A DNA stretch of 64,000 nt, taken from positions 620,001 to 684,000 of the forward strand of contig NZ_VAWF01000001.1 of assembly GCF_005869845.1 (NCBI RefSeq), read 5' to 3'. This document shows, in pieces, positions 1-63,800 of the stretch. Position numbers and translations under genes: made by a program. Positions within the stretch are counted from its first letter, which is position 1; each line of letters opens with the position of its first letter. The notes below the pieces were generated by a model, which ran no database searches, had not been told where the DNA came from, and worked only from the letters and a program-made list of their open reading frames with translations. The DNA comes from Fodinibius saliphilus (GTDB lineage: Bacteria > Bacteroidota > Rhodothermia > Balneolales > Balneolaceae).

Positions 1-407
1 TGGGCTAGTTCAGCAAGTTTTTTATCAATTTCTAAAAGGGTTTCAGCACTGGTGTCTTTATTTAAAAGACCATCAATATATGTTAGTTCGTGCTGGTTCC
101 CGCCACGTTTTTCAGCCTTCTTTTTACGAGCATGATCAATTAATATCTGACGCATACAGCGCGATGAAATGGCAAAAAAGTGGTTGCGATCAGTCGCTTC
201 TATACTCCCTTGCTGCACCATTTTTAGATACACTTCATGGACCAATGCTGTTTTGGAATAGGTTACTTCAGAATATTCCTTGTTTAGCCGAGCATGGGCA
301 AGCTGTCTAAGTTGGTTATACACTAAAGGAAATAAAGCGTCGTAGGCCTTTTCCGAACCTTCCTTAATATGTACCAATAGCTGGGTTATTTCCGCTTGGG
401 ATTTCAT
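1..407 (-). CDS. ECF-type RNA polymerase sigma factor, C-terminus cut by window edge
   Basis: Reading the minus strand from the ATG at 407 gives an open frame of 135 codons that runs off the window. It begins MKSQAEITQLL and contains RCMRQILID followed by ARKKKAEKRGG, nearly the same as the sigma factor at 8464-9042, so region 2 is complete and region 4 lies outside. Region 2.2 reads SKTALVHE (Thr53), where classical ECF sigmas have an acidic DAED-like motif. The family recruits RNA polymerase to alternative promoters. It is divergent from the lipoprotein gene at 592, the same arrangement as at 8464/9153. The sequence to its left, if conserved, would hold a kinase gene. Family assignment is firm; the regulon is unknown. 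Confidence 0.9.
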   Translation of the reverse strand, partial: MKSQAEITQLLVHIKEGSEKAYDALFPLVYNQLRQLAHARLNKEYSEVTYSKTALVHEVYLKMVQQGSIEATDRNHFFAISSRCMRQILIDHARKKKAEKRGGNQHELTYIDGLLNKDTSAETLLEIDKKLAELA

Positions 408-448
408 AGGTGCAAAAGGGGTATTAGATTCCAATAATTGTGTAGAGA

Positions 449-456
449 TATATTTG
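449..456 (+). promoter_or_regulatory. Possible -7 promoter element for the lipoprotein gene
   Basis: The octamer TATATTTG matches the Bacteroidota -7 consensus TAnnTTTG and lies about 135 bases before the lipoprotein start at 592. No clear -33 TTTG is found 19-21 bases upstream, so this is only a candidate, and an ECF-type promoter elsewhere in 408-591 is equally possible. Confidence 0.25.
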
Positions 457-591
457 TGATGAATATAATAAATACTTTGAACCAATTGTGCTTACCGGCT
501 CGCATTTACAAGCAGTAGCCCCCAAGGCTCTTCAAGAGTAGATAACAATAGATGTCTTGGATCTTAATCTCAATAAATAAAAAATAAAATT

Positions 592-2610
592 ATGAAATAT
601 TTAGTTACTGTTATAGCGGTTATTGCTTCTGTTTTTTTAATACAGGGGTGTAGCAGCAGTCCTTCAGGCTCAGGAAAGTCGACTAATCCACCTACCTTAG
701 ATGCGGTAATCGATCATTCGCCTAGTTTACCCGAAACCAATGTTGAAGTTAACTTGGATGCCGGCAATTCCAAAGACGAACAGAATATCGGCTATGATAT
801 TCAGTGGTCACTTACGAACAAACCAACAAATAGTTCAGTTACCTTAAGTAATACCACTCAACCAAAGATAAAGTTTATCCCCGATGTCGCGGGTGACTAT
901 GAAGTTAAACTGGAAATAGAAAATAGTTCAAAAGGCATAATCGATGATGCCACTACAACAATATCCGTTATATCATCTGAATCAACAATAGAACTTGAAG
1001 GTGATATTAATACCGACAGTACCTTAACAGATATATTTTCAGAACCTAGTATTCCGGACTATTTAGTAGTTGGTGATGTTGACGTCAATGCTAAGTTAAC
1101 CGTTGATCCAGGTGTTGTAATACATTTTAAAGAAAACTTGGGGCTAAAAGTAGCGAGCGACGGTATATTATCGGCAGTTGGTACTGACAGTAATAGAATT
1201 ATTTTTACTGGTGAAAGCCAATCTGTAAATGGATTTTGGAAAGGCATTAATATTTATTCAAATACTGTAGAGAACGCTATCAAATATGCCGAAATAAGTT
1301 ATGGGGGCAGTAAATCTGCGGGTACTTATTTTGAGGCTGCAAATATAACGATTGATCAGGCTAAAGTTCAGCTTGCCAATACTAAAATATCTAACAGTGG
1401 AATGTTTGGGATTCAAACACGGCGAAGTGGTTCAGAATTCCCAATGGAAAATATGGAGTTCAGTAGTAATGATGATGAACATGCATATGTCCATATCAGT
1501 CAATTGGGTTATTTTGACAGTGGAAGTTCTTTTGACGGTGGATATGTAGAAGGCTTTGGCGGCTCAACAAAAGCTGACCTGGATATTTCGGTGTTGAATG
1601 GGGCAAAGTATAGTATTTTGGATAATGTAGGTTTCGATCACCTTGTGACTATTGATGCAGGTACCCAAATCGAGTTTGTAGCTGATGCGGGTTTTAAGGT
1701 AGGTAATAATGGAACCATCAAAGCCATTGGGGCAGCTAATAATAAAATTATATTTACCGGTACGGCAAAAACTCCAGGGGCCTGGCGAGGCATATTTATC
1801 GGGTCACCTTCTGTTGATAACATCTTGAAGCATGTTGAAATCAGCTATGGTGGCAGTATAAATATGGCTACCTACTTCAATAAGGCCAATATGGTCATTG
1901 ATCGGGCCAAAGTTGAGCTAGACAATGTCGAAATAACCGGAAGTGCAGGTTATGGTATTCAAACCCGCCGAAATGGATCTACATTCACTCTAACCAACTC
2001 CTTGTTTGATAATAATCAGAACTCTGATATGCGAATTCATCCAACGCAGGTTGATTTTATTGACAACCTAACCAACTTTAATGACGGAGATGTGGAAGTC
2101 TATGGAGGAGATACAGAGGCCACTGGCAGCGAAACCTGGAGTAACCTTAACAACGGGACGTTCTATTTTTCAAGTTCGGTAAGTATTGAAAAGGAAGTGT
2201 CGATCGAGGCCGGAACGCTGTTTGAAATGGGGACTGATGTTAAGTTATTAGTATCTAGTGGTACTGATCCGGGCGTAATAAAAGCGATAGGGACTAGTAG
2301 TAATCCTATTATCTTCACAGGGCGTTCTAAAGTGAAAGGAGCTTGGCGTGGTGTCTTAATAGCTTCTGGTTCTGTTGATAACGAGATGGATCATGTTAAA
2401 ATAGAGTATGGAGGAAGCAGCGATTTGGCGACTTATATGCCAGCCGGGAATTTAGGGGTATATAACGATGCTTATCTGACTATTTCGAATACAGAGATCC
2501 AGAATAGTGCCAATTATGGTTTCATGGTACGGGAAACCCGGGGTGCTACCGTTGCGGGAACAAATATCACTTATTTGGATAATTCAAACTCTGATTTTTA
2601 TGATTATTAG
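592..2610 (+). CDS. Exported lipoprotein with PKD-like domain and three large repeats
   Basis: The 672-residue protein has a lipoprotein signal peptide ending at Cys20, a Ser/Gly-rich spacer, then a PKD/Ig-like domain (about residues 38-130, with FIPDVAGDYEVKLEIE near its end). The rest is three copies of a roughly 185-residue unit, each with IIFTG, then G-x-W-x-G and an I-x-YGGS motif followed by TY. The alternating short hydrophobic strands suggest a parallel beta-helix like those of polymorphic outer-membrane or pectate-lyase folds. No catalytic residues are recognisable. It is probably outer-membrane anchored and surface exposed. The gene is divergent from an ECF sigma gene and its PKD domain is related to that of the lipoprotein at 9153. 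Function unknown; adhesion, glycan binding or sensing are possible. Confidence 0.8.
   Translation: MKYLVTVIAVIASVFLIQGCSSSPSGSGKSTNPPTLDAVIDHSPSLPETNVEVNLDAGNSKDEQNIGYDIQWSLTNKPTNSSVTLSNTTQPKIKFIPDVAGDYEVKLEIENSSKGIIDDATTTISVISSESTIELEGDINTDSTLTDIFSEPSIPDYLVVGDVDVNAKLTVDPGVVIHFKENLGLKVASDGILSAVGTDSNRIIFTGESQSVNGFWKGINIYSNTVENAIKYAEISYGGSKSAGTYFEAANITIDQAKVQLANTKISNSGMFGIQTRRSGSEFPMENMEFSSNDDEHAYVHISQLGYFDSGSSFDGGYVEGFGGSTKADLDISVLNGAKYSILDNVGFDHLVTIDAGTQIEFVADAGFKVGNNGTIKAIGAANNKIIFTGTAKTPGAWRGIFIGSPSVDNILKHVEISYGGSINMATYFNKANMVIDRAKVELDNVEITGSAGYGIQTRRNGSTFTLTNSLFDNNQNSDMRIHPTQVDFIDNLTNFNDGDVEVYGGDTEATGSETWSNLNNGTFYFSSSVSIEKEVSIEAGTLFEMGTDVKLLVSSGTDPGVIKAIGTSSNPIIFTGRSKVKGAWRGVLIASGSVDNEMDHVKIEYGGSSDLATYMPAGNLGVYNDAYLTISNTEIQNSANYGFMVRETRGATVAGTNITYLDNSNSDFYDY
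1001..2600 (+). repeat. Three tandem diverged ~550-base coding repeats
   Basis: Units start near 1001, 1558 and 2105 within the lipoprotein gene. Each carries in order an IxxGTxIEF-like segment, an 'IKAIGxxxNxIIFTG' segment and an 'xHVxIxYGGS' segment. The first two also share GIQTRR. Protein similarity is clear while the DNA has diverged, so the triplication is old and kept by selection rather than recent slippage. Confidence 0.75.
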
Positions 2611-2637
2611 AATAATGGGCTAATTGATAAATGATTT

Positions 2638-2671
2638 AAAGGACTGTCGTTAATCTGGCAGTCCTTTTTTA
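2638..2671 (+). terminator. Rho-independent terminator of the lipoprotein gene
   Basis: AAAGGACTG (2638-2646) pairs with CAGTCCTTT (2659-2667) around a 12-base loop and is followed by a T run. It lies 28 bases after the lipoprotein stop. Confidence 0.85.
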
Positions 2672-2746
2672 TTTAAAACTCTTTTTTATCCTCTTGTTAG
2701 AGGATTTGTATATTTACATTCATCGTTGATTTTAAAAGTGCGCTCC

Positions 2747-3619
2747 ATGAATATAAAAAAGGTAACGTTAGCACTAATACAGTGCAGATGCTCTTCTGAT
2801 ATCACAGTAAATATGAAGAAGACTATAAAAAAGATTGAACAGGCCTCAAATGATGGGGCACAAATAATATTATTACAGGAGTTATTTCAGACACCATACT
2901 TTTGTCAAACTGTAGATGAAAAATATTTCGATTTGGCACAATCCATACCAGGTCCAGTTACTGAAGAGCTTTCAAAACTGGCAAAAGAACTGGAGGTCGT
3001 AGTTGTAGCGCCGTTTTTTGAGCGAAGGGCTGCTGGTATTTACCATAATTCCGTTTGTGTTATAGATGCAGATGGTAACTTAATGGGGACATATCGCAAG
3101 CATCACATCCCGGATGACCCTGGTTTTCATGAGAAATATTATTTCACACCCGGAGATGGGGGATATCGGGTTTTTGATACCAAATATGCTAAAATTGCTC
3201 CATTGATATGCTGGGATCAATGGTTCCCTGAAGCTGCCCGTATTGCAGCACTAAAAGGCGCTGAACTGCTTGTATATCCAACTGCTATTGGGACATTGCC
3301 GGATGAAAAAGGTGAGATTGGAAAGAGCTATCTAGATGCATGGCAAACAATACAAAAAAGTCATGCAATCGCTAACAGTTGTTTTGTGGCAAGTGTGAAT
3401 AGAACTGGAGAGGAGGGAGAGGTCAATTTCTGGGGACATTCTTTTGTAGCAAGTCCTTTTGGAAAAGTATTGGCAGAAGCAGGTCATGATGAAGAGACTG
3501 TGATCGCTGAAATCGACATTTTAGAAATTGAAAATCAGCGAAGAGTTTGGCCATTCTTTAGAGATCGAAGGATAGATACTTATCAACCTATAGGAAATCG
3601 GTATATTGAAAATGATTGA
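2747..3619 (+). CDS. aguB: N-carbamoylputrescine amidase
   Basis: A 290-residue nitrilase-superfamily enzyme that hydrolyses N-carbamoylputrescine to putrescine, CO2 and ammonia, the second step of the agmatine route to polyamines; cytoplasmic. The catalytic triad is visible: Glu45 in LLQELFQTPYF, Lys118 in YRKHHIPDD and Cys155 in PLICWDQWFPE. These surrounding sequences are typical of AguB rather than general nitrilases. I chose the ATG at 2747; the frame extends upstream to a TTG at 2726, but the family begins at VTLALIQ, so the extension is unlikely. Agmatine deiminase lies at 4562 on the same strand, separated by an opposite-strand sigma factor gene whose stop is only 3 bases from this gene's stop. 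Confidence 0.93.
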   Translation: MNIKKVTLALIQCRCSSDITVNMKKTIKKIEQASNDGAQIILLQELFQTPYFCQTVDEKYFDLAQSIPGPVTEELSKLAKELEVVVVAPFFERRAAGIYHNSVCVIDADGNLMGTYRKHHIPDDPGFHEKYYFTPGDGGYRVFDTKYAKIAPLICWDQWFPEAARIAALKGAELLVYPTAIGTLPDEKGEIGKSYLDAWQTIQKSHAIANSCFVASVNRTGEEGEVNFWGHSFVASPFGKVLAEAGHDEETVIAEIDILEIENQRRVWPFFRDRRIDTYQPIGNRYIEND

Positions 3620-3622
3620 ACG

Positions 3623-4195
3623 CTAATCACTTTTTAAATTATTATACAACCAGTTTTTAGCTTGGTTCCAGTCACGCTTTATGGTTCTTTCTGATAATTT
3701 TAGTGATTTGGCAATATTATGCATGGTCATATCATGGAAGAATCGCATTCTAACTACTTTGGCGAGCCGTTTGTTATAAACTGAAAGTTCTTCGACCGAT
3801 TTACTTACAAGGCTGTAGCTTTTTGGGCATTCATTTGCTGATCCCAACTCTTCATGAAAAGTTATTTCCTGGTAGTTGGTACCACGTATTTCTGTATCCT
3901 GTTTACGAGCCTGATCTATTAGAATTTGATGCATACAGTTAGAAGCAATAGATAGAAAGTGATTGTAGTTATTACATTTCAAACTTTTTTGCTTCAGCAT
4001 CTTTAAATATAGCTCATGTACCAGGTCAGTGTTGCTAATACCATTTTTATTTTTCTCAGGCATTAGTTGTAGATACGCACGTTTTTTTAGCTCTTCATAA
4101 AGAAGTGAGAATAGTTTGTTATATGCTTTCTGAGTGTTGACGTGAATATTATTAACAAAATACGATCTCTTTGTATCATCCTTTTTTATAGTCAT
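3623..4195 (-). CDS. ECF-type sigma factor, diverged paralogue without adjacent kinase
   Basis: This 190-residue protein has region 2 (LVHELYLKML, HQILIDQARKQ) and a region 4 helix-turn-helix near the C-terminus (MTMHNIAKSLKLSERTIKRDW). It is the same subfamily as the sigmas at 1-407 and 8464-9042 but more diverged; for instance the KRGG after region 2 has become IRGT. The DAED position reads SNTDLVHE with Thr56. No kinase or lipoprotein gene is beside it; it separates aguB from aguA. It is rich in Lys/Asn and AT compared with its neighbours, which may mean relaxed constraint or a different history. DNA-binding residues look intact, so I call it a gene and not a pseudogene. Confidence 0.88.
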   Translation of the reverse strand: MTIKKDDTKRSYFVNNIHVNTQKAYNKLFSLLYEELKKRAYLQLMPEKNKNGISNTDLVHELYLKMLKQKSLKCNNYNHFLSIASNCMHQILIDQARKQDTEIRGTNYQEITFHEELGSANECPKSYSLVSKSVEELSVYNKRLAKVVRMRFFHDMTMHNIAKSLKLSERTIKRDWNQAKNWLYNNLKSD

Positions 4196-4340
4196 ATCCT
4201 ACCCCTTTTTTATTAATTCCCTTAATTAAAAAAGCATTTTTCAGGTAAAATTGAAATAAATTAGGAAAATTTGTCACTTTTCTCATAAATTTTACGCATT
4301 ATATAAGTGAGGGTATTTGTAAAAGGTAGGAAATTAAAGA
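4196..4340. promoter_or_regulatory. AT-rich divergent intergenic segment with the promoters of the sigma gene and of the downstream RNA element
   Basis: This part of the 366-base gap between the sigma start (4195) and aguA (4562) is AT-rich with no gene. A TTGTCA at 4271-4276 and several TATA-like hexamers occur, but spacing fits no consensus well, so promoter positions are not assigned. The rest of the gap holds the structured RNA element at 4341-4484. Confidence 0.35.
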
Positions 4341-4484
4341 GAGGCGCATATTAAGCATCACAGGAGTGATGTTATGTTAAACCGCTGTAAAATACAGCGT
4401 TAGAGGGTCGCGGAGAGATGTCAATAAATGACGCATATTAAGGTTAAGGGCAGTGGGGTTGATACTCACTGCCCTTTTATTTTT
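4341..4484 (+). ncRNA. Candidate structured small RNA or attenuated aguA leader
   Basis: Three plus-strand hairpins follow each other: CATCAC/GTGATG with loop AGGA (4356-4371), CGCTGTA/TACAGCG with loop AAA (4383-4399), and the terminator at 4446-4476. A weaker GTCA/TGAC pair lies at 4420-4432. The 11-mer CGCATATTAAG occurs twice, at 4345-4355 and 4432-4442, framing the middle structure. There is no open reading frame of note. The element ends 77 bases before aguA, so it is either an independent small RNA or a leader that can stop transcription ahead of agmatine deiminase. It does not match a riboswitch consensus I know. Class unassigned. Confidence 0.55.
4446..4484 (+). terminator. Strong rho-independent terminator upstream of aguA
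   Basis: AAGGGCAGTG (4446-4455) pairs perfectly with CACTGCCCTT (4467-4476) around an 11-base loop and is followed by TTTTATTTTT. It ends a transcript begun upstream, within the sigma/aguA gap. Confidence 0.88.
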
Positions 4485-4561
4485 GTCTGTATATAGTATA
4501 TTTGAGCAACCCTCATAACTTGAAGTGTAGAGCTACTGGCATCTCAAAATTAGATTGAAAT

Positions 4562-5629
4562 ATGCTTGAAAAGATACCTGCAGAGTTGAACTATTCCCTG
4601 TTACCCGAGTGGCATAACCACTCAGCTACTCAAATGCATTGGCCTTCAAATAAGAAGACGTGGCCTGGCAAACGTTTACAAAAGGTGGAGTATGTTTATC
4701 TGGATATTATTGAGGTATTACATCGCTATGAGAATATTCACCTCTTTGTTGATAACAGGATACTACATGAGCATGTTGTAAATTTGTTGAGGGAGCGAAA
4801 TATTAATCTAGATAAGATTATATTTCATATCCAATCAATTAATGATGTTTGGGCTCGAGATTGTGGCCCCATTTTTGTTTATCGAGAGGGGGAAGAAGAG
4901 GCTGAGTATGCGATAACAGATTGGGAATATAATAGTTGGGGAGATAAATATCCTCCATATGATTCAGATAATAAGTTACCTAGCTACCTTGCCTCGAAGT
5001 ATGGTATAAGTCGTTATGAACCGGAAATGGTTTTGGAAGGTGGGTCTATAGATACCAATGGGGATGGAGTCTTGATAACAACGGAATCTGTATTATTAAA
5101 TCGCAATAGGAATCCCCAAATGACAAGAGATGATATTGAGCAACGATTACAAGATTTTTTAGGGATACAGAGAGTAATTTGGCTAAAAGGAGGGTTGGCA
5201 GGAGATGATACCGACGGCCATGTGGATGATGTTGCCCGTTTCTTAAATAAAGATACAATACTGGCAATGCGTTCTGATATTGAGCATGATATCAACTATA
5301 AGGTGTTAGATGAAAATTTAGAAATATTACAGCGGGCCACTGACCGCCATGGATATTCATTTGCGATAGAAACCTTGCCATTACCTGAAACCCGTATAGA
5401 GGATAGAACAGTTGATGGGTCAAGTCACGTGCCGGCCAGCTATACCAATTTTTATATTGCAAATGAGGTCGTATTGGTCCCATTATATGATGAGCGTTAT
5501 GATCAAGAGGCCCTTAGGCTTTTCAGACAATATTACCCTGGTCGCGATATTGTTGGCATACCATGTGCCGATCTAGTATGGGGACAAGGAGCAATACATT
5601 GTATTACGCAGCCCCTATACGGCTTATAG
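4562..5629 (+). CDS. aguA: Agmatine deiminase
   Basis: The 355-residue cytoplasmic enzyme converts agmatine to N-carbamoylputrescine and ammonia, the step before AguB. It is a Porphyromonas-type peptidylarginine deiminase family protein: WARDCGPIFV, EGGSIDTNGDG, the GDDTDGHVDD motif with the substrate-binding Asp and His, and the catalytic Cys347 in GQGAIHCITQ near the C-terminus. Length fits the family. Together with aguB (2747) it gives putrescine from agmatine; an arginine decarboxylase is not in the window. A hairpin-rich element with a terminator ends 77 bases upstream, so expression may depend on readthrough or on a promoter in 4485-4561. Confidence 0.93.
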   Translation: MLEKIPAELNYSLLPEWHNHSATQMHWPSNKKTWPGKRLQKVEYVYLDIIEVLHRYENIHLFVDNRILHEHVVNLLRERNINLDKIIFHIQSINDVWARDCGPIFVYREGEEEAEYAITDWEYNSWGDKYPPYDSDNKLPSYLASKYGISRYEPEMVLEGGSIDTNGDGVLITTESVLLNRNRNPQMTRDDIEQRLQDFLGIQRVIWLKGGLAGDDTDGHVDDVARFLNKDTILAMRSDIEHDINYKVLDENLEILQRATDRHGYSFAIETLPLPETRIEDRTVDGSSHVPASYTNFYIANEVVLVPLYDERYDQEALRLFRQYYPGRDIVGIPCADLVWGQGAIHCITQPLYGL

Positions 5630-5649
5630 AATACCAGGGGGATAGGCAG

Positions 5650-8385
5650 CTAACGCTTGTGGTGCCTTTCTTTTATGTTTTTAATATAGCTCAGGGCTTT
5701 TTGTATACGTAAATCGTTATCATTAAAGTTTTTCTTGAATATGGAAACCGCTTTTGAGAAATATTTTTCTGATATTGAAAAATTTTGTTGGTGATATTTA
5801 AGGAGACCATAATTCATAAAAAACTCCCCAATCCGGTAGTGATCTTGCGGGAAATGGTTTTCATAGATAGGTTTCGCCTTAGTAAAAATGGAATCTGATT
5901 TTGCATATTTCTTGGCCTTCATTAAGATTGAACCTAATTTATTCAGGTCTAAGCCAACTTCAGGATGTTTTTCTCCTAGGCGTAGCTTGTCTATAGTGAT
6001 TACCTGTTTTAACAACTTTTGGGCTTTACTATATTTTCCTAGATCCATTAATACATCTCCAAGGTTATACATAGGAATTGCCAAGTCTGGATTGGTGCTG
6101 TCCATTTTACTTCGATAAATAGCCAGTGATTTCTCGTAGTTATTCTTTGCCTGTTGTAAATTGCCTTGAGCTTTTTGAATAATGGCAAAGTTATTAACAC
6201 TCTTTGCATATATAACAGAGGAATCGCCATAGATACTTTTAGTTAGGTCAATATCCTTGAGTGCATATTTTTCGGCTTGTTCCCATTCGCTTAAGACGCG
6301 GTAATTTCTGGCTAATAATCCATAGCTGGCACTTAATTCAGAACTATTGGGACCATACAACTTGATGAACTCTTCCAATGCTTCAAGTAGGTATGATTCA
6401 GCTTTCTTATGTTTGCTGGTACGATGATATAATAATCCCATTCGATACTTTGTACGGGCAATTTCGGGATGGGAGTGTTCATAATAATTCTTGAAATAGG
6501 AGAGAGCCTTTTTAAAATGTTTCTCAGCTAGCCCATATTCACCCAAAAATAACTGAGTTTCTCCTAAGTTTGCTAAAGTAACGTGATAAGAAATATTGTC
6601 TGTCTTATGATATCTTTTTTTAAGACTATCCGATTTTAGAAATAAGTTTTCTGCTTTTTGATATTGAGATTGCAAAAATTGATTACTTGCGTATATCGCA
6701 AAAGGTTCTGCCAACTCAGGTGAATTGTCTCCATATAACTGTATTTTAATATCAATTGCTTTGCGAATGTGTTTTTCAGCCAAGTTGTATTTGTGGACTT
6801 CGTGATAGTAACTTGAGAGATGGGAATGAATGTTAGCAGTTTGTAATGACTTTTCACCATAGTGTGTAATACTTCTATTTAATGCTTTTGTTAAAGCTTC
6901 TTTAGCGGTTTCGAATGCATCCACATTTGATAAAGCATCCCCAATTGCAGAGAGCATTTCAATGTATATTTTCGGTTGATCATTTAGCTCTCGTTCTGTT
7001 CTATGGAATCCAGCCAAGAGTAAATCATTGACTGTGGCATTATTGCCAGCATAGCTTTTCATATCTGGATTGCCGGTATTAAACATCTGAAGCATAAAGT
7101 TTTTTACTTGTTCAGCGCGTTCTGCTTCAAAACGCGCCTGATCACGCTCTTTGGCAATGCGCCAAGTATAAAAGCTTGCAAAACCGATGATGAGTAAAAT
7201 AACACCTACAACTGTAGCAAGGCCTTGTTTATGTCGTTGGAAAAACTTTTTTGACCGATACTGCACTGAATTTTGACGTGCGGTAACTGGTAATCCCTTA
7301 CGGTAATTTTCTAAATCACTTAAAAAATCATTGGCAACACGGTAGCGTTGGTCAGCTTCTTTACGAATGGCTTTGAGTACAATTGCATCCAGATCGCCTC
7401 GTAGCTTTTTTTTAAGGGTTATCGAATCAACTGATGAGCTTGGGGATGAGGGGTCCTTTTTTAATATAATATGTTCAATTTCATGTTGTGAGATATCTTC
7501 AAAATTGAAAGGAAAGGCCCCTGCTAATAATTGATAAAATATGATACCGAGGGCATATAGATCGGTAGCTGTTGTGATATTGGTTTCCTTAATTTGTTCA
7601 GGTGCTGCATATTTTGGAGTCAGAAGTCGTGCTCCTGTCTGTGTTAAAGAAGCATCCTCTTCTTGGTGGAGTTTGGATATTCCAAAATCGAGTATTTTAA
7701 CATTCCCGGATTGATCGACCAGGATATTTCCAGGTTTCAAATCCCGATGAATAACCAGGTTCTCATGGGCATGACGAACGGCTTGTAGTACTTGTTTAAA
7801 AAGCTCAATTTTATCATCAATCGAAGTATTGTATTTGCGGCAATATTCATCAATAGGCATGCCGTTAACATATTCCATGATGATATAGAGAAACCCGTCA
7901 TCGGTAACTCCGCCGTCAAAAAGCTGGGCTATTCCGCGATGGCTAAGGTTCGCTAGAATCTGCTGTTCTCTTTTAAATCGTTGTATATTTGATTGTGTAG
8001 CTCTCCCATGTCGAATTATTTTGATAGCCACCTTGTGATCAAATTTTTTATCATCACGTTCAGCCATATAGACTGTACCCATACCACCTTCTCCCAAGAT
8101 GCTTTTAATAGAATAGGAGCCAACTTTTTTACCTATTAGGGAATTTTCTTCAGTAATACTCTCAATTTCGTTACCTAGTTCGTTATAAAACTCCTTCTTG
8201 TATGTAGATGGGTTGTCAAGCCAGCCTTCTGACTCAAAAATCGAGTTAAGGAGTTGGGTGACTTCTATTTTGAGGGTTTTATTATTTTTACACCTTTTTT
8301 GGATGAAAGCAGGGTGCTGATCTTGGGGTAAGTCTAATACTTCATCAATAATAGTCTCTACTTCTTGCCAGTCGAGTTCACTCAT
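5650..8385 (-). CDS. Transmembrane Ser/Thr protein kinase with C-terminal TPR region
   Basis: The 911-residue protein has an N-terminal helical segment (1-75), a complete PknB-like kinase domain (about 91-360) and one membrane helix (about 389-407), then about 500 residues of TPR repeats of the kind with 42-residue spacing. The kinase looks active: Gly loop GEGGMGTV, Lys122 in VAIK, HRDLKPGN with Asp215, DFG at 233-235 and AAPEQ. The kinase should face the cytoplasm and the TPR part the periplasm. It lies 78 bases downstream of the sigma gene at 8464 on the same strand, so they are probably co-transcribed. That pairing of ECF sigma and kinase recurs in several phyla, and the sigma factor is the likely substrate. 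That last point is inference. Confidence 0.92.
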   Translation of the reverse strand: MSELDWQEVETIIDEVLDLPQDQHPAFIQKRCKNNKTLKIEVTQLLNSIFESEGWLDNPSTYKKEFYNELGNEIESITEENSLIGKKVGSYSIKSILGEGGMGTVYMAERDDKKFDHKVAIKIIRHGRATQSNIQRFKREQQILANLSHRGIAQLFDGGVTDDGFLYIIMEYVNGMPIDEYCRKYNTSIDDKIELFKQVLQAVRHAHENLVIHRDLKPGNILVDQSGNVKILDFGISKLHQEEDASLTQTGARLLTPKYAAPEQIKETNITTATDLYALGIIFYQLLAGAFPFNFEDISQHEIEHIILKKDPSSPSSSVDSITLKKKLRGDLDAIVLKAIRKEADQRYRVANDFLSDLENYRKGLPVTARQNSVQYRSKKFFQRHKQGLATVVGVILLIIGFASFYTWRIAKERDQARFEAERAEQVKNFMLQMFNTGNPDMKSYAGNNATVNDLLLAGFHRTERELNDQPKIYIEMLSAIGDALSNVDAFETAKEALTKALNRSITHYGEKSLQTANIHSHLSSYYHEVHKYNLAEKHIRKAIDIKIQLYGDNSPELAEPFAIYASNQFLQSQYQKAENLFLKSDSLKKRYHKTDNISYHVTLANLGETQLFLGEYGLAEKHFKKALSYFKNYYEHSHPEIARTKYRMGLLYHRTSKHKKAESYLLEALEEFIKLYGPNSSELSASYGLLARNYRVLSEWEQAEKYALKDIDLTKSIYGDSSVIYAKSVNNFAIIQKAQGNLQQAKNNYEKSLAIYRSKMDSTNPDLAIPMYNLGDVLMDLGKYSKAQKLLKQVITIDKLRLGEKHPEVGLDLNKLGSILMKAKKYAKSDSIFTKAKPIYENHFPQDHYRIGEFFMNYGLLKYHQQNFSISEKYFSKAVSIFKKNFNDNDLRIQKALSYIKNIKERHHKR

Positions 8386-8463
8386 GCCAAGTACGAGTCA
8401 ATTAATAGTTATTGTGGTCCTTCATTATGCACCTACGTAAAAGAATATGTAAGGTAGGTCAAA

Positions 8464-9042
8464 TTACTCCATCTTAAACCGCCCTTTCAATTCTTTGTAT
8501 AGCCAGCCCCGAGCCTTCATCCAATCACGTTTAACAGTACTCTCAGAAATGCCTAAGGTATTTGCTGTTTCTGTAATTGTCATTTCTCCAAAGAAACGCA
8601 TTTCAACAACTTTGCTGAGTCTGCTATTTAGTTTTTCCAGTCTATCAAGTGCTGCATCAATATCCAGAAGTTCTTGTGACTTTTTATTCTGATTCTTAAA
8701 AATTTCGTCTATATACGTGAGATCTTTCTGTTTACCTCCACGCTTTTCAGCCGTTTTCTTGCGGGCATAATCGATTAAAATTTGACGCATACAGCGAGAG
8801 GAAATTGCTAAAAAATGGCTTTTATCAGTGAAGTTAATCTTCGACTGATCTATCATCTTTAAATAGGTCTCATGCACGAGTTCAGTCTTTGAGAGGGTGT
8901 GGTCCGGTGACTGACGATGCATGTGTGAATAAGCTAGCTTCCTAAGCTCTTCATAAATAAGTGGGTAAAGCTTTTCGTAGACCTTCTTTTGACCATCTTT
9001 TAACTGGCAAAGTAGTTGAGTGACTTCTGATTGAGATACCAT
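8464..9042 (-). CDS. ECF-type sigma factor paired with a Ser/Thr kinase
   Basis: 192 residues with region 2 (TELVHETYLKMI, RCMRQILIDYARKK, AEKRGG) and region 4 (MTITETANTLGISESTVKRDW). It closely resembles the truncated sigma at 1-407. The site normally occupied by the acidic DAED motif reads SKTE, with Thr53. In the Vibrio EcfP/PknT system a Thr at about this place is phosphorylated to restore polymerase binding; the kinase gene just downstream makes the same mechanism plausible here. It is divergent from the lipoprotein gene at 9153 across a 110-base gap, which suggests that gene as a target. Family firm, mechanism inferred. Confidence 0.92.
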   Translation of the reverse strand: MVSQSEVTQLLCQLKDGQKKVYEKLYPLIYEELRKLAYSHMHRQSPDHTLSKTELVHETYLKMIDQSKINFTDKSHFLAISSRCMRQILIDYARKKTAEKRGGKQKDLTYIDEIFKNQNKKSQELLDIDAALDRLEKLNSRLSKVVEMRFFGEMTITETANTLGISESTVKRDWMKARGWLYKELKGRFKME

Positions 9043-9152: not shown

Positions 9153-10886
9153 ATGACTAACAAAGCTACAATATTCGGATTAATAATGTCAGTGCTAATC
9201 CTCTTCGGCTGTTCAGGAAACAGTACTAGCCCAGACAATGGAGGAGGTGATGATGGAGGCGGAAATGGCGGAACACCTACTGCAACTGCAGATGCAGGAA
9301 CAGATTCGGAGGAAGCTGTTGGGTTTGAAATATCAGCAGATGGATCCGGTTCGACGGGAAGTGGAACTATCAGTTATTCCTGGAGTTTTACTAATCAGCC
9401 TGCCAACAGTACAGTCACCTTGTCAAATGCATCCTCAGAAACCCCTACTTTTACACCTGATCTGCCTGGGGAGTATATTTTGGAACTGGAGGTGAGTTCT
9501 GACGGTGAAACAGATGCTGATACTGTTGTATATTCAGCAATAGCTAAAAGAATATTTGTTGATGCAAATAGCGGTACTGATGAAGATATTAACGGCTATA
9601 TGGAGGCAACACCTTTGAAAACGGTATCCGCAGCATTGACACGCATTGGCAATAATGATAGTGATCCCTTTTTGGCAATCGATACCATGCGTGTTGCAAA
9701 AGGGACCTATGACGAAAATAACGGAGAAAGTTATCCTTTGTCCTTTATCGGCAACTTGATTGTTAAGGGAGACCAGAGTGTCGATCGTAGCAGTATACAC
9801 CTGCTGAGTCCAGATGTTGAGAGGGACCCGGCAATTAAAATTGGAGAGGGAGTAATATTAAGACACCTACATATTGAAAATGGTTATACCGGGGGAACGT
9901 TTAATGGCGACCCCGATGCGGTATATATATGGAGCGGAAGCGACATGAGCTCATCAACAGTTGCATTGGAGGATATTAAAATAACAATGAATGCCAGGGA
10001 AGGAGTAGCCATATCAACCGGCTCAAATATGACAGTAGATGTTCGGGGCTATAACGGTACCCGGAGCTATATTAACGGGAATAATGTTGGACGTGCTTAT
10101 CTAAACCGATTTAACACTTCAAATGTAACCCTAAATATTAAAGATACGGATATTTCAAATATGGGAGATGTTGGAGCTATCGAGGTTGATGATGTTCATA
10201 ATCTTACTATTAATGTCACCAATTCGGTATTTAAACCCGGTACAGGGCATGTGAATGCCTATGCTTTCGACCTGGAAGATGATGTGGATCTAACATTAGA
10301 AAATACGACTATTACCAGCAGTACCGGGTCAACATCAGGTGCTCGTTTTAAATATGGGATAGTAATGGACAATGATCAGCCAAATACTAATATCGAGATT
10401 CTGAACTCTACTATAGAGTATACGCAGTGGTCAGCAGTTTTAATGCGTGCTTCTGTTGTTAAAATAACTGATAGTATTATTGAAGGAGTGCTTACACAAG
10501 AGTCTAATGTGAATTTAGCCTATGATGCTATCAGGCAACTCGATGGTACACTGATAGTGCGTGGAACTACATTCAAAGATATTAATACCAGTGCAATAGA
10601 TGTTGGAGGACCTAATTTGCCCAATGACAATAACTTTTCTGTGGATTTGGGTACTGATCAGGATCCGGGTAACAATGTTTTCCAAAATGTTAGGGGATGG
10701 GATGTACAGGTATCGCGTAGTGGTGAGGTAGTGAGTGAATTACCGGCATTCGGAAATAGCTGGTCTAATGGAGCTAGTCCAAGATGCAGACAAGATGTAA
10801 GCGATTATGATCTTGGAGAAATATATGTAAATGATCAGGGGGGGAGCCTACGCTGGGGAACCGGCAGCTCAGAGATATGTAACTAA
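9153..10886 (+). CDS. Exported lipoprotein with PKD-like domain and right-handed beta-helix
   Basis: 577 residues. The signal peptide ends at lipobox Cys20, followed by a Gly/Asp linker with a run of Gly, Asp and Asn. A PKD/Ig-like domain (about 45-130) is clearly related to that of the lipoprotein at 592: both have TNxPxNSxVTLSN and later PGEY or AGDY. From about 135 comes a DUF1565-type start (FVDANSGTDE, ATPLKTVSAAL) and a parallel beta-helix with repeated short strands to the end. Such folds often bind or cut polysaccharides, but I see no catalytic signature. It is divergent from the sigma/kinase pair, so it may be a target or a sensor partner of that system. Confidence 0.82.
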   Translation: MTNKATIFGLIMSVLILFGCSGNSTSPDNGGGDDGGGNGGTPTATADAGTDSEEAVGFEISADGSGSTGSGTISYSWSFTNQPANSTVTLSNASSETPTFTPDLPGEYILELEVSSDGETDADTVVYSAIAKRIFVDANSGTDEDINGYMEATPLKTVSAALTRIGNNDSDPFLAIDTMRVAKGTYDENNGESYPLSFIGNLIVKGDQSVDRSSIHLLSPDVERDPAIKIGEGVILRHLHIENGYTGGTFNGDPDAVYIWSGSDMSSSTVALEDIKITMNAREGVAISTGSNMTVDVRGYNGTRSYINGNNVGRAYLNRFNTSNVTLNIKDTDISNMGDVGAIEVDDVHNLTINVTNSVFKPGTGHVNAYAFDLEDDVDLTLENTTITSSTGSTSGARFKYGIVMDNDQPNTNIEILNSTIEYTQWSAVLMRASVVKITDSIIEGVLTQESNVNLAYDAIRQLDGTLIVRGTTFKDINTSAIDVGGPNLPNDNNFSVDLGTDQDPGNNVFQNVRGWDVQVSRSGEVVSELPAFGNSWSNGASPRCRQDVSDYDLGEIYVNDQGGSLRWGTGSSEICN

Positions 10887-63242: not shown

Positions 63243-63800
63243 ATGAAGCAGCAAAAGGAACGACAGTTAATTGAACAAATACAAAATGGACAAAGCGGTG
63301 AGTATAGAACGCTTGTTGATCGGTATGCACCTATGGTATTTAGTATCGTGAACAACTTTGTTGATGCTGAAGCAGATAGAGAAGAGTTGGCACAAGCTAT
63401 TTTTGTGAAAGCTTATGAACGTCTGGGTTCGTTTAAAGGAGATTCAAAATTTTCTTCATGGCTCTATTCACTGGCAAAAAATCATTGTAGGGACTATGCT
63501 AAAAATATTCGCAGGAATAACAGCAATTTTAGTGAGATGGATGAACAGGATCTTAATTCCCGCCTGCGAGATGATGGGTTGCCGGATAAAGAAGTTGAAC
63601 GTCAACAATGGATAGCACTCTTGCAAGAAGGACTTGATAATATAAATACTGAGTATGCTGAGGCCTTTATGATGAAGTATAATGAGGATATGAGCTATAA
63701 AGCGATGTCAAACAGGCTAGATGCATCTGTTAGTGCACTTAAAGTCCGTGTTTACCGAGCTAAAAAAGAACTTAAGAACTATATTGAAAAACGGGGTTAA
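63243..63800 (+). CDS. ECF sigma factor of the classical RpoE/SigW type
   Basis: 185 residues with region 2 (ADREELAQAIFVKAYERLGS, FSSWLYSLAKNHCRDYAK) and region 4 (AFMMKYNEDMSYKAMSNRL, then ALKVRVYRAKKEL). It keeps the acidic region 2.2 that the three kinase-type sigmas in this window lost. The next gene begins 5 bases after its stop and looks like an anti-sigma factor, the usual partner. A TCTGAT/ATCAGA hairpin lies just before the start (63213-63230). Confidence 0.93.
   Translation: MKQQKERQLIEQIQNGQSGEYRTLVDRYAPMVFSIVNNFVDAEADREELAQAIFVKAYERLGSFKGDSKFSSWLYSLAKNHCRDYAKNIRRNNSNFSEMDEQDLNSRLRDDGLPDKEVERQQWIALLQEGLDNINTEYAEAFMMKYNEDMSYKAMSNRLDASVSALKVRVYRAKKELKNYIEKRG

Follow-up and report, generated by a model that had tools for sequence, protein, structure and literature searches.

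In a 64,000-nucleotide stretch of the Fodinibius saliphilus genome (contig NZ_VAWF01000001.1, positions 620,001 to 684,000; here the 'window', with positions counted from its first letter), three extracytoplasmic function (ECF) sigma factors, termed s1, s2 and s3, carry a threonine in region 2.2 at the residue whose counterpart is phosphorylated in EcfK, and two of them, s1 and s3, are each followed directly by the gene for a receptor kinase of their own. Comparison with characterised pairs makes it probable that s1 and s3 are activated by phosphorylation, in the manner of EcfK/PknS and EcfP/PknT, with each kinase serving mainly its own sigma; s2 is a relative without a kinase of its own.

The sigma factors and their threonine

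The four ECF sigma factors of the window are:

1..407, minus strand: s1, ECF sigma factor (TIGR02999/PF07638), motif SKTA with Thr53, truncated at the window start
3623..4195, minus strand: s2, orphan ECF sigma factor, motif SNTD with Thr56
8464..9042, minus strand: s3, ECF sigma factor, motif SKTE with Thr53
63243..63800, plus strand: ordinary ECF sigma factor with the acidic motif DREE and without a kinase, used as negative control

The whole of s1 is present in the genome (locus L025, 7851-8486). An earlier reading made from the letters of the window alone (the sequence-only reading) gave region 2.2 as SKTALVHE (s1, Thr53), SNTDLVHE (s2, Thr56) and SKTELVHE (s3, Thr53), and the open reading frames, motifs and numbering all proved correct, as did its report that the fourth factor is acidic at the motif site (DREE within ADREELAQ). 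It further proposed that the threonine replaces the acidic DAED motif. This is so for s1, whose SKTA is fully uncharged, but the replacement is only partial in s2 and s3, since each retains an acidic residue at position 4, next to the threonine (SNTD and SKTE), just as EcfK does (QATE). When aligned, Thr53, Thr56 and Thr53 match EcfK T51 column for column, and s1, s2, s3, EcfK and s4, the sigma of a further pair in the same genome, all score above the TIGR02999 cut-off. The shared threonine is no coincidence: among 106 order-level homologues motif position 3 is threonine in 100, positions 1, 2 and 4 being variable.

Is a threonine there a sufficient marker of kinase control? This is ruled out, as two of the 11 ordinary ECFs of the genome also have one (EATE and QATE), acid-flanked and with no kinase nearby. 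A different threonine, in the linker (LTYID/ITFHE), is common to the four intact family sigmas of the genome, and is also found in 79 of 147 kinase-linked homologues.

The kinases and their pairing

The kinase genes concerned are as follows, G000 being the genome to which the window belongs:

5650..8385, minus strand: kin3, PknS-like receptor kinase of 911 amino acids, beginning 78 bp after s3
about 8131-8385, minus strand: kin3 N-terminal module
about 7345-8115, minus strand: kin3 kinase domain
about 7162-7224, minus strand: kin3 membrane helix
about 5653-7161, minus strand: kin3 ectodomain of tetratricopeptide repeats (TPR)
G000:C1:617151-619673, outside the window: kin1, the kinase of s1, 840 amino acids in the order kinase, membrane helix, TPR, 176 bp downstream of the s1 stop codon

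That a kinase is encoded right after one of the sigmas, as had been noticed from the letters, is borne out by kin3, which has HRDLKP, DFG and APE, a single membrane helix and six TPR_12 matches. Does one kinase serve all three sigmas, or does each have its own? Both had been suggested, and the second stands for s1 and s3 and falls for s2, which has none; a single shared kinase is ruled out for s1 and s3 because kin1 adjoins s1 just beyond the window. There are three intact PF00069 kinases in the genome, each encoded immediately after a Thr-type sigma, so that the intact pairs are s3-kin3, s1-kin1 and one at C1:1642559. In yet another pair, at C1:1365937-1367637 (L027), both genes are interrupted by stops or frameshifts, and sigma and kinase have therefore decayed together.

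All the intact kinases have the layout of PknS, namely an N-terminal extension of ~85 residues, the kinase domain, one membrane helix and a TPR ectodomain. With a kinase profile, the best match in the PDB was PknS itself (9EED, E 4.6e-82), the sole PDB match that also spanned the N-terminal extension; the extension of one kinase alone, searched against the PDB, gave no match, and a profile was required. On this profile comparison the kinases are full-length PknS relatives, N-terminal extension included. Despite the three receptor kinases, a search limited to the PP2C_2 family found no PP2C_2 phosphatase in the genome. At four other loci (L087, L103, L107 and L077) the sigma gene is followed by two tandem PknS-like kinase genes, and in L107 the kinase domains of the two are similar and their ectodomains unrelated.

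Relation to characterised pairs

The gene for EcfK was found via the PknS sequence of PDB 9EED in named Xanthomonas genomes, as the gene directly upstream of the kinase, and with its start at MSELPITELL the Thr of QATELVHE is residue 51, which PknS phosphorylates in vitro (PMC13147305). Like the Fodinibius pairs, EcfK/PknS of Xanthomonas citri (ECF43) has the sigma directly upstream of the kinase, the threonine at the same aligned residue and membership of TIGR02999; as in s2 and s3 an acidic residue follows the threonine, and PknS, like the Fodinibius kinases, has an N-terminal extension (~83 amino acids), a single membrane helix and a TPR region in the periplasm. However, EcfK is very distant in sequence from the window sigmas and forms a long branch in the tree, PknS, in which three TPRs are annotated, governs a type VI secretion system, and the Fodinibius genome differs in its several paralogous pairs, its orphan sigma and its lipoprotein neighbours. 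EcfP/PknT of Vibrio parahaemolyticus (also ECF43), compared by published motif only, resembles s1 in that its motif is uncharged with the phospho-Thr third (STTA versus SKTA), the second Thr of STTA being the one phosphorylated by PknT (PMC8999054); it differs in its involvement in the polymyxin response. In groups of Planctomycetota linked to serine/threonine protein kinases (ECF59, 61, 62 and 217) an ECF sigma gene also adjoins a Ser/Thr kinase gene, but these are reported to have DAED-like acids or Ser, unlike the window sigmas (PMC8999054, PMC8103513). Placement of the window sigmas in the ECF43-like, kinase-activated class is supported by the alignment of the threonine, the kinase linkage and TIGR02999. 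The ECF43-like architecture recurs here in a different lineage of bacteria, where a genome carries several paralogous pairs.

How might such a pair work? Without most of the DAED charges in region 2.2, unphosphorylated s1 and s3 would have little affinity for core RNA polymerase. The cognate membrane kinase would perceive a cue, external or from the envelope, via its periplasmic TPR domain, its cytoplasmic kinase domain would then phosphorylate T53, the phosphate would restore charge at the contact with the beta-prime clamp, and the phosphorylated sigma would turn on the adjacent surface-lipoprotein genes, each kinase acting mainly on its own sigma.

The orphan, s2

The gene for s2 is located between aguB and aguA, which by family match are putative putrescine-pathway genes; the end of aguB is 3 bp past the s2 stop codon, and there is no kinase gene with it. 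A congener, G010, has a complete sigma-kinase pair in the same aguB-aguA gap (L112). In the tree the sigma of that pair groups with s2 and the s2 orthologue of another species, G004, with a support of 96 in the SH-like approximate likelihood ratio test (SH-aLRT). Because the pair is present at the same site and its sigma groups with s2, loss of the s2 kinase most probably occurred in an ancestor common to G000 and G004, with the threonine retained. That s2 might be a decaying pseudogene is ruled out, as it is intact in two species and its nonsynonymous divergence (dN) is far below the synonymous (dS): dN is 0.25, dS is saturated, selection is purifying and the threonine is kept in both orthologues. 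Its dN is higher than that of s1 (0.04) and s3 (0.07), and the three sigmas fall in separate clades of the tree.

Conservation of the threonine

Order-level homologues together with 60 regions drawn from other families in the class gave 162 evaluable sigmas, of which 147 are 'linked', i.e., lie within 1 kb of a PknS-like kinase. The sequence-only reading had proposed to compare conservation of the threonine with the presence of an adjacent kinase. At the class level the threonine is indeed conserved in linked homologues (133/147), but it is also present in 12 of the 15 unlinked ones (Fisher p=0.20), and so its loss does not clearly follow loss of the kinase. For the order by itself the figures are 87 of 90 linked versus 7 of 10 unlinked (p=0.013, with relatedness uncorrected), and, as kinase linkage changes independently just six times on the tree, there are too few changes for a phylogenetic pairs test to give a significant result. 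Strict coupling of threonine to kinase presence is unsupported both at class level and on the tree; by these counts the threonine is a family trait that mostly outlives kinase loss.

Linked sigmas without threonine at position 3 usually carry Thr or Ser at the preceding residue, and some orphan sigmas are without the threonine altogether (GTHD, NTHD, KSND). Aspartate at position 4 is present in 8 of 10 order-level orphans and in only one of five additional class-level orphans, which overall is 9/15 orphans versus 15/147 linked, a pattern that is suggestive and phylogenetically weak. At two loci, L039 and L041, whose sigmas have neither kinase nor threonine (GTHD, NTHD), a convergent small gene beginning MPKYVIEREVPGV follows.

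Weighing the alternatives

Several observations weigh against phosphorylation of the region 2.2 threonine as the basis of activation: most kinase-less homologues keep it (the 12 of 15 just mentioned), it is absent from position 3 in 12 linked homologues whose motif is complete, s1 and s3 themselves have yielded no target motif, and in X. citri EcfK T51A is still functional while the linker T106 matters (PMC13147305). In view of that functional T51A and of the position-4 acid retained by s2 and s3, the threonine may not act as an all-or-none switch, and the linker Thr/Ser may also be important. On a rival reading, which draws on the kinase-less homologues and on EcfK T51A and T106, the threonine would be a structural or polymerase-contact residue of the whole TIGR02999 family, with the kinase acting elsewhere, e.g., on the linker threonine, whose wide sharing is described above, or on a third protein, and ordinary ECFs can after all carry a threonine there. 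Yet the aligned threonine is phosphorylated in two characterised members, and the linked homologues that lose it usually have a Thr or Ser one residue before; we consider it improbable that the threonine is not the main phosphosite.

What then of s2? One proposal is that the cluster is cross-wired, kin1 and/or kin3 phosphorylating all three sigmas, s2 included, and so integrating two signals. It accords with s2 having kept its threonine under purifying selection in two species without a kinase of its own, and with both remaining kinases being within about 4 kb, but the existence of dedicated pairs elsewhere speaks for insulation, each of the three sigmas falls in a different clade and s2 evolves much faster than the other two, and such cross-wiring is somewhat unlikely. 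Another proposal, to be entertained tentatively, is that s2 is now independent of any kinase, being constitutive or transcriptionally controlled, with Asp57 for polymerase contact and the threonine a relic. The frequency of the position-4 aspartate in order-level orphans compared with linked sigmas, and the disappearance of the threonine from some orphans, point that way; however, the orphan lineages are few and related, the aspartate is in just one of the additional class-level orphans and both s2 orthologues retain the threonine. Under the preferred reading, of phosphorylation-activated s1 and s3 with a kinase-less relative, s2 would be a member of the same family that lost its kinase by deletion, kept Thr56 under selection and either responds to kin1 or kin3, the kinases nearby, or has partial activity via Asp57.

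Exchange of sensor domains

Between kin1 and its G004 orthologue (L057) identity is 89% in the cytoplasmic part and 26-32% in the TPR ectodomain (for kin1, L025 5152-6360), with DNA identity dropping from 0.90 to 0.47 over ~100 bp, at a sharp breakpoint a few residues beyond the membrane helix. For kin3 and its orthologue divergence is even, at 70% and 74%. Many congeners show comparable swaps. Of 60 kinases whose cytoplasmic part has a close partner, 25 have their closest ectodomain partner in a different kinase, and the kinase of L083 is plainly a mosaic, one half being L088-like and the other L101-like. Because an unmatched ectodomain often shares 50-86% identity with that of another kinase, recombination of modules appears to explain the swapped ectodomains better than does fast divergence.

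A candidate promoter and its possible targets

On the plus strand, next to the sigma genes, are:

4270..4298, plus strand: promoter-like element TTTGTCAC-N14-TTACGCA, divergent from s2, sole exact match in the 3.6-Mb genome
4330..4485, plus strand: structured RNA of about 180 nt with hairpins and an intrinsic terminator, candidate s2 target
592..2610, plus strand: surface-type lipoprotein, divergent from s1, with a lipobox and weak PKD and beta-helix matches, candidate s1 output by position only
9153..10886, plus strand: surface-type lipoprotein, divergent from s3, with a PKD-like domain and DUF1565, candidate s3 output by position only

The motif TTTGTCMC-N14-TTACGCA was first spotted upstream at the s2 locus, where it points away from s2, and was afterwards tested elsewhere. 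Exact matches number 9 in 59 genomes versus 1 for the reversed control, and 7 of the 9 are within ~6.5 kb of a kinase-linked sigma, such loci being a small fraction of the genomes; 3 of these 7 are discovery sites and 4 are independent. In the fetched loci, at spacing 14, there are 7 exact copies and 5 with one mismatch (controls: 0 exact and at most 1 with one mismatch), mostly 40-56 bp upstream of the start codons of lipoprotein genes adjoining sigma-kinase pairs, and near the fourth pair of the Fodinibius genome (C1:1642559) a two-mismatch copy is 38 bp upstream of a lipoprotein start. The motif is concentrated in one sigma clade, at 9/12 loci versus 1/87 others, the locus sets having been drawn post hoc, after the hits had been seen. 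It is a candidate for the target promoter of these family sigmas. A search by k-mer counting for a promoter shared upstream of all such sigmas gave only clade-specific elements and AT-rich noise.

The structured RNA, preceded by the motif and ending in a strong terminator, is upstream of the agmatine deiminase gene, and is conserved only at s2-type loci, in the same place in three species; it matched no family in Rfam. As for the lipoproteins, s1 and s3, which lack the motif, face divergent lipoprotein genes, and this layout is a common one: a crude lipobox test was passed by 21/72 divergent neighbours versus 108/1025 open reading frames. Judging by position, the sigma-kinase system probably controls surface lipoproteins.

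A wider proposal would see these systems as modular surface-remodelling receptors, in which TPR sensors are exchanged between kinases close to the membrane helix and the kinase-sigma output is kept, TTTGTCMC-N14-TTACGCA, as a dedicated promoter, drives the adjacent lipoproteins, and s2, rewired to paralogous kinases, controls the structured RNA and not a lipoprotein; as a whole we rate this as rather unlikely. Nature offers uncharged and half-charged motifs, an orphan sigma, a threonine shifted by one residue and swapped sensors, and these variants together with the candidate promoter motif would give a direct read-out of kinase-sigma specificity and so make a good test bed.

Small stand-alone proteins that match only the N-terminal module of the kinases are encoded at five loci (L098 6891-7178, L048 669-971, L074 171-377, L092 9643-9957 and L093 3592-3816), and that module could be a sigma-docking domain. 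Two of them adjoin sigmas with which no kinase is seen, L048 being near a contig end, and the motif precedes one clearly and another possibly.

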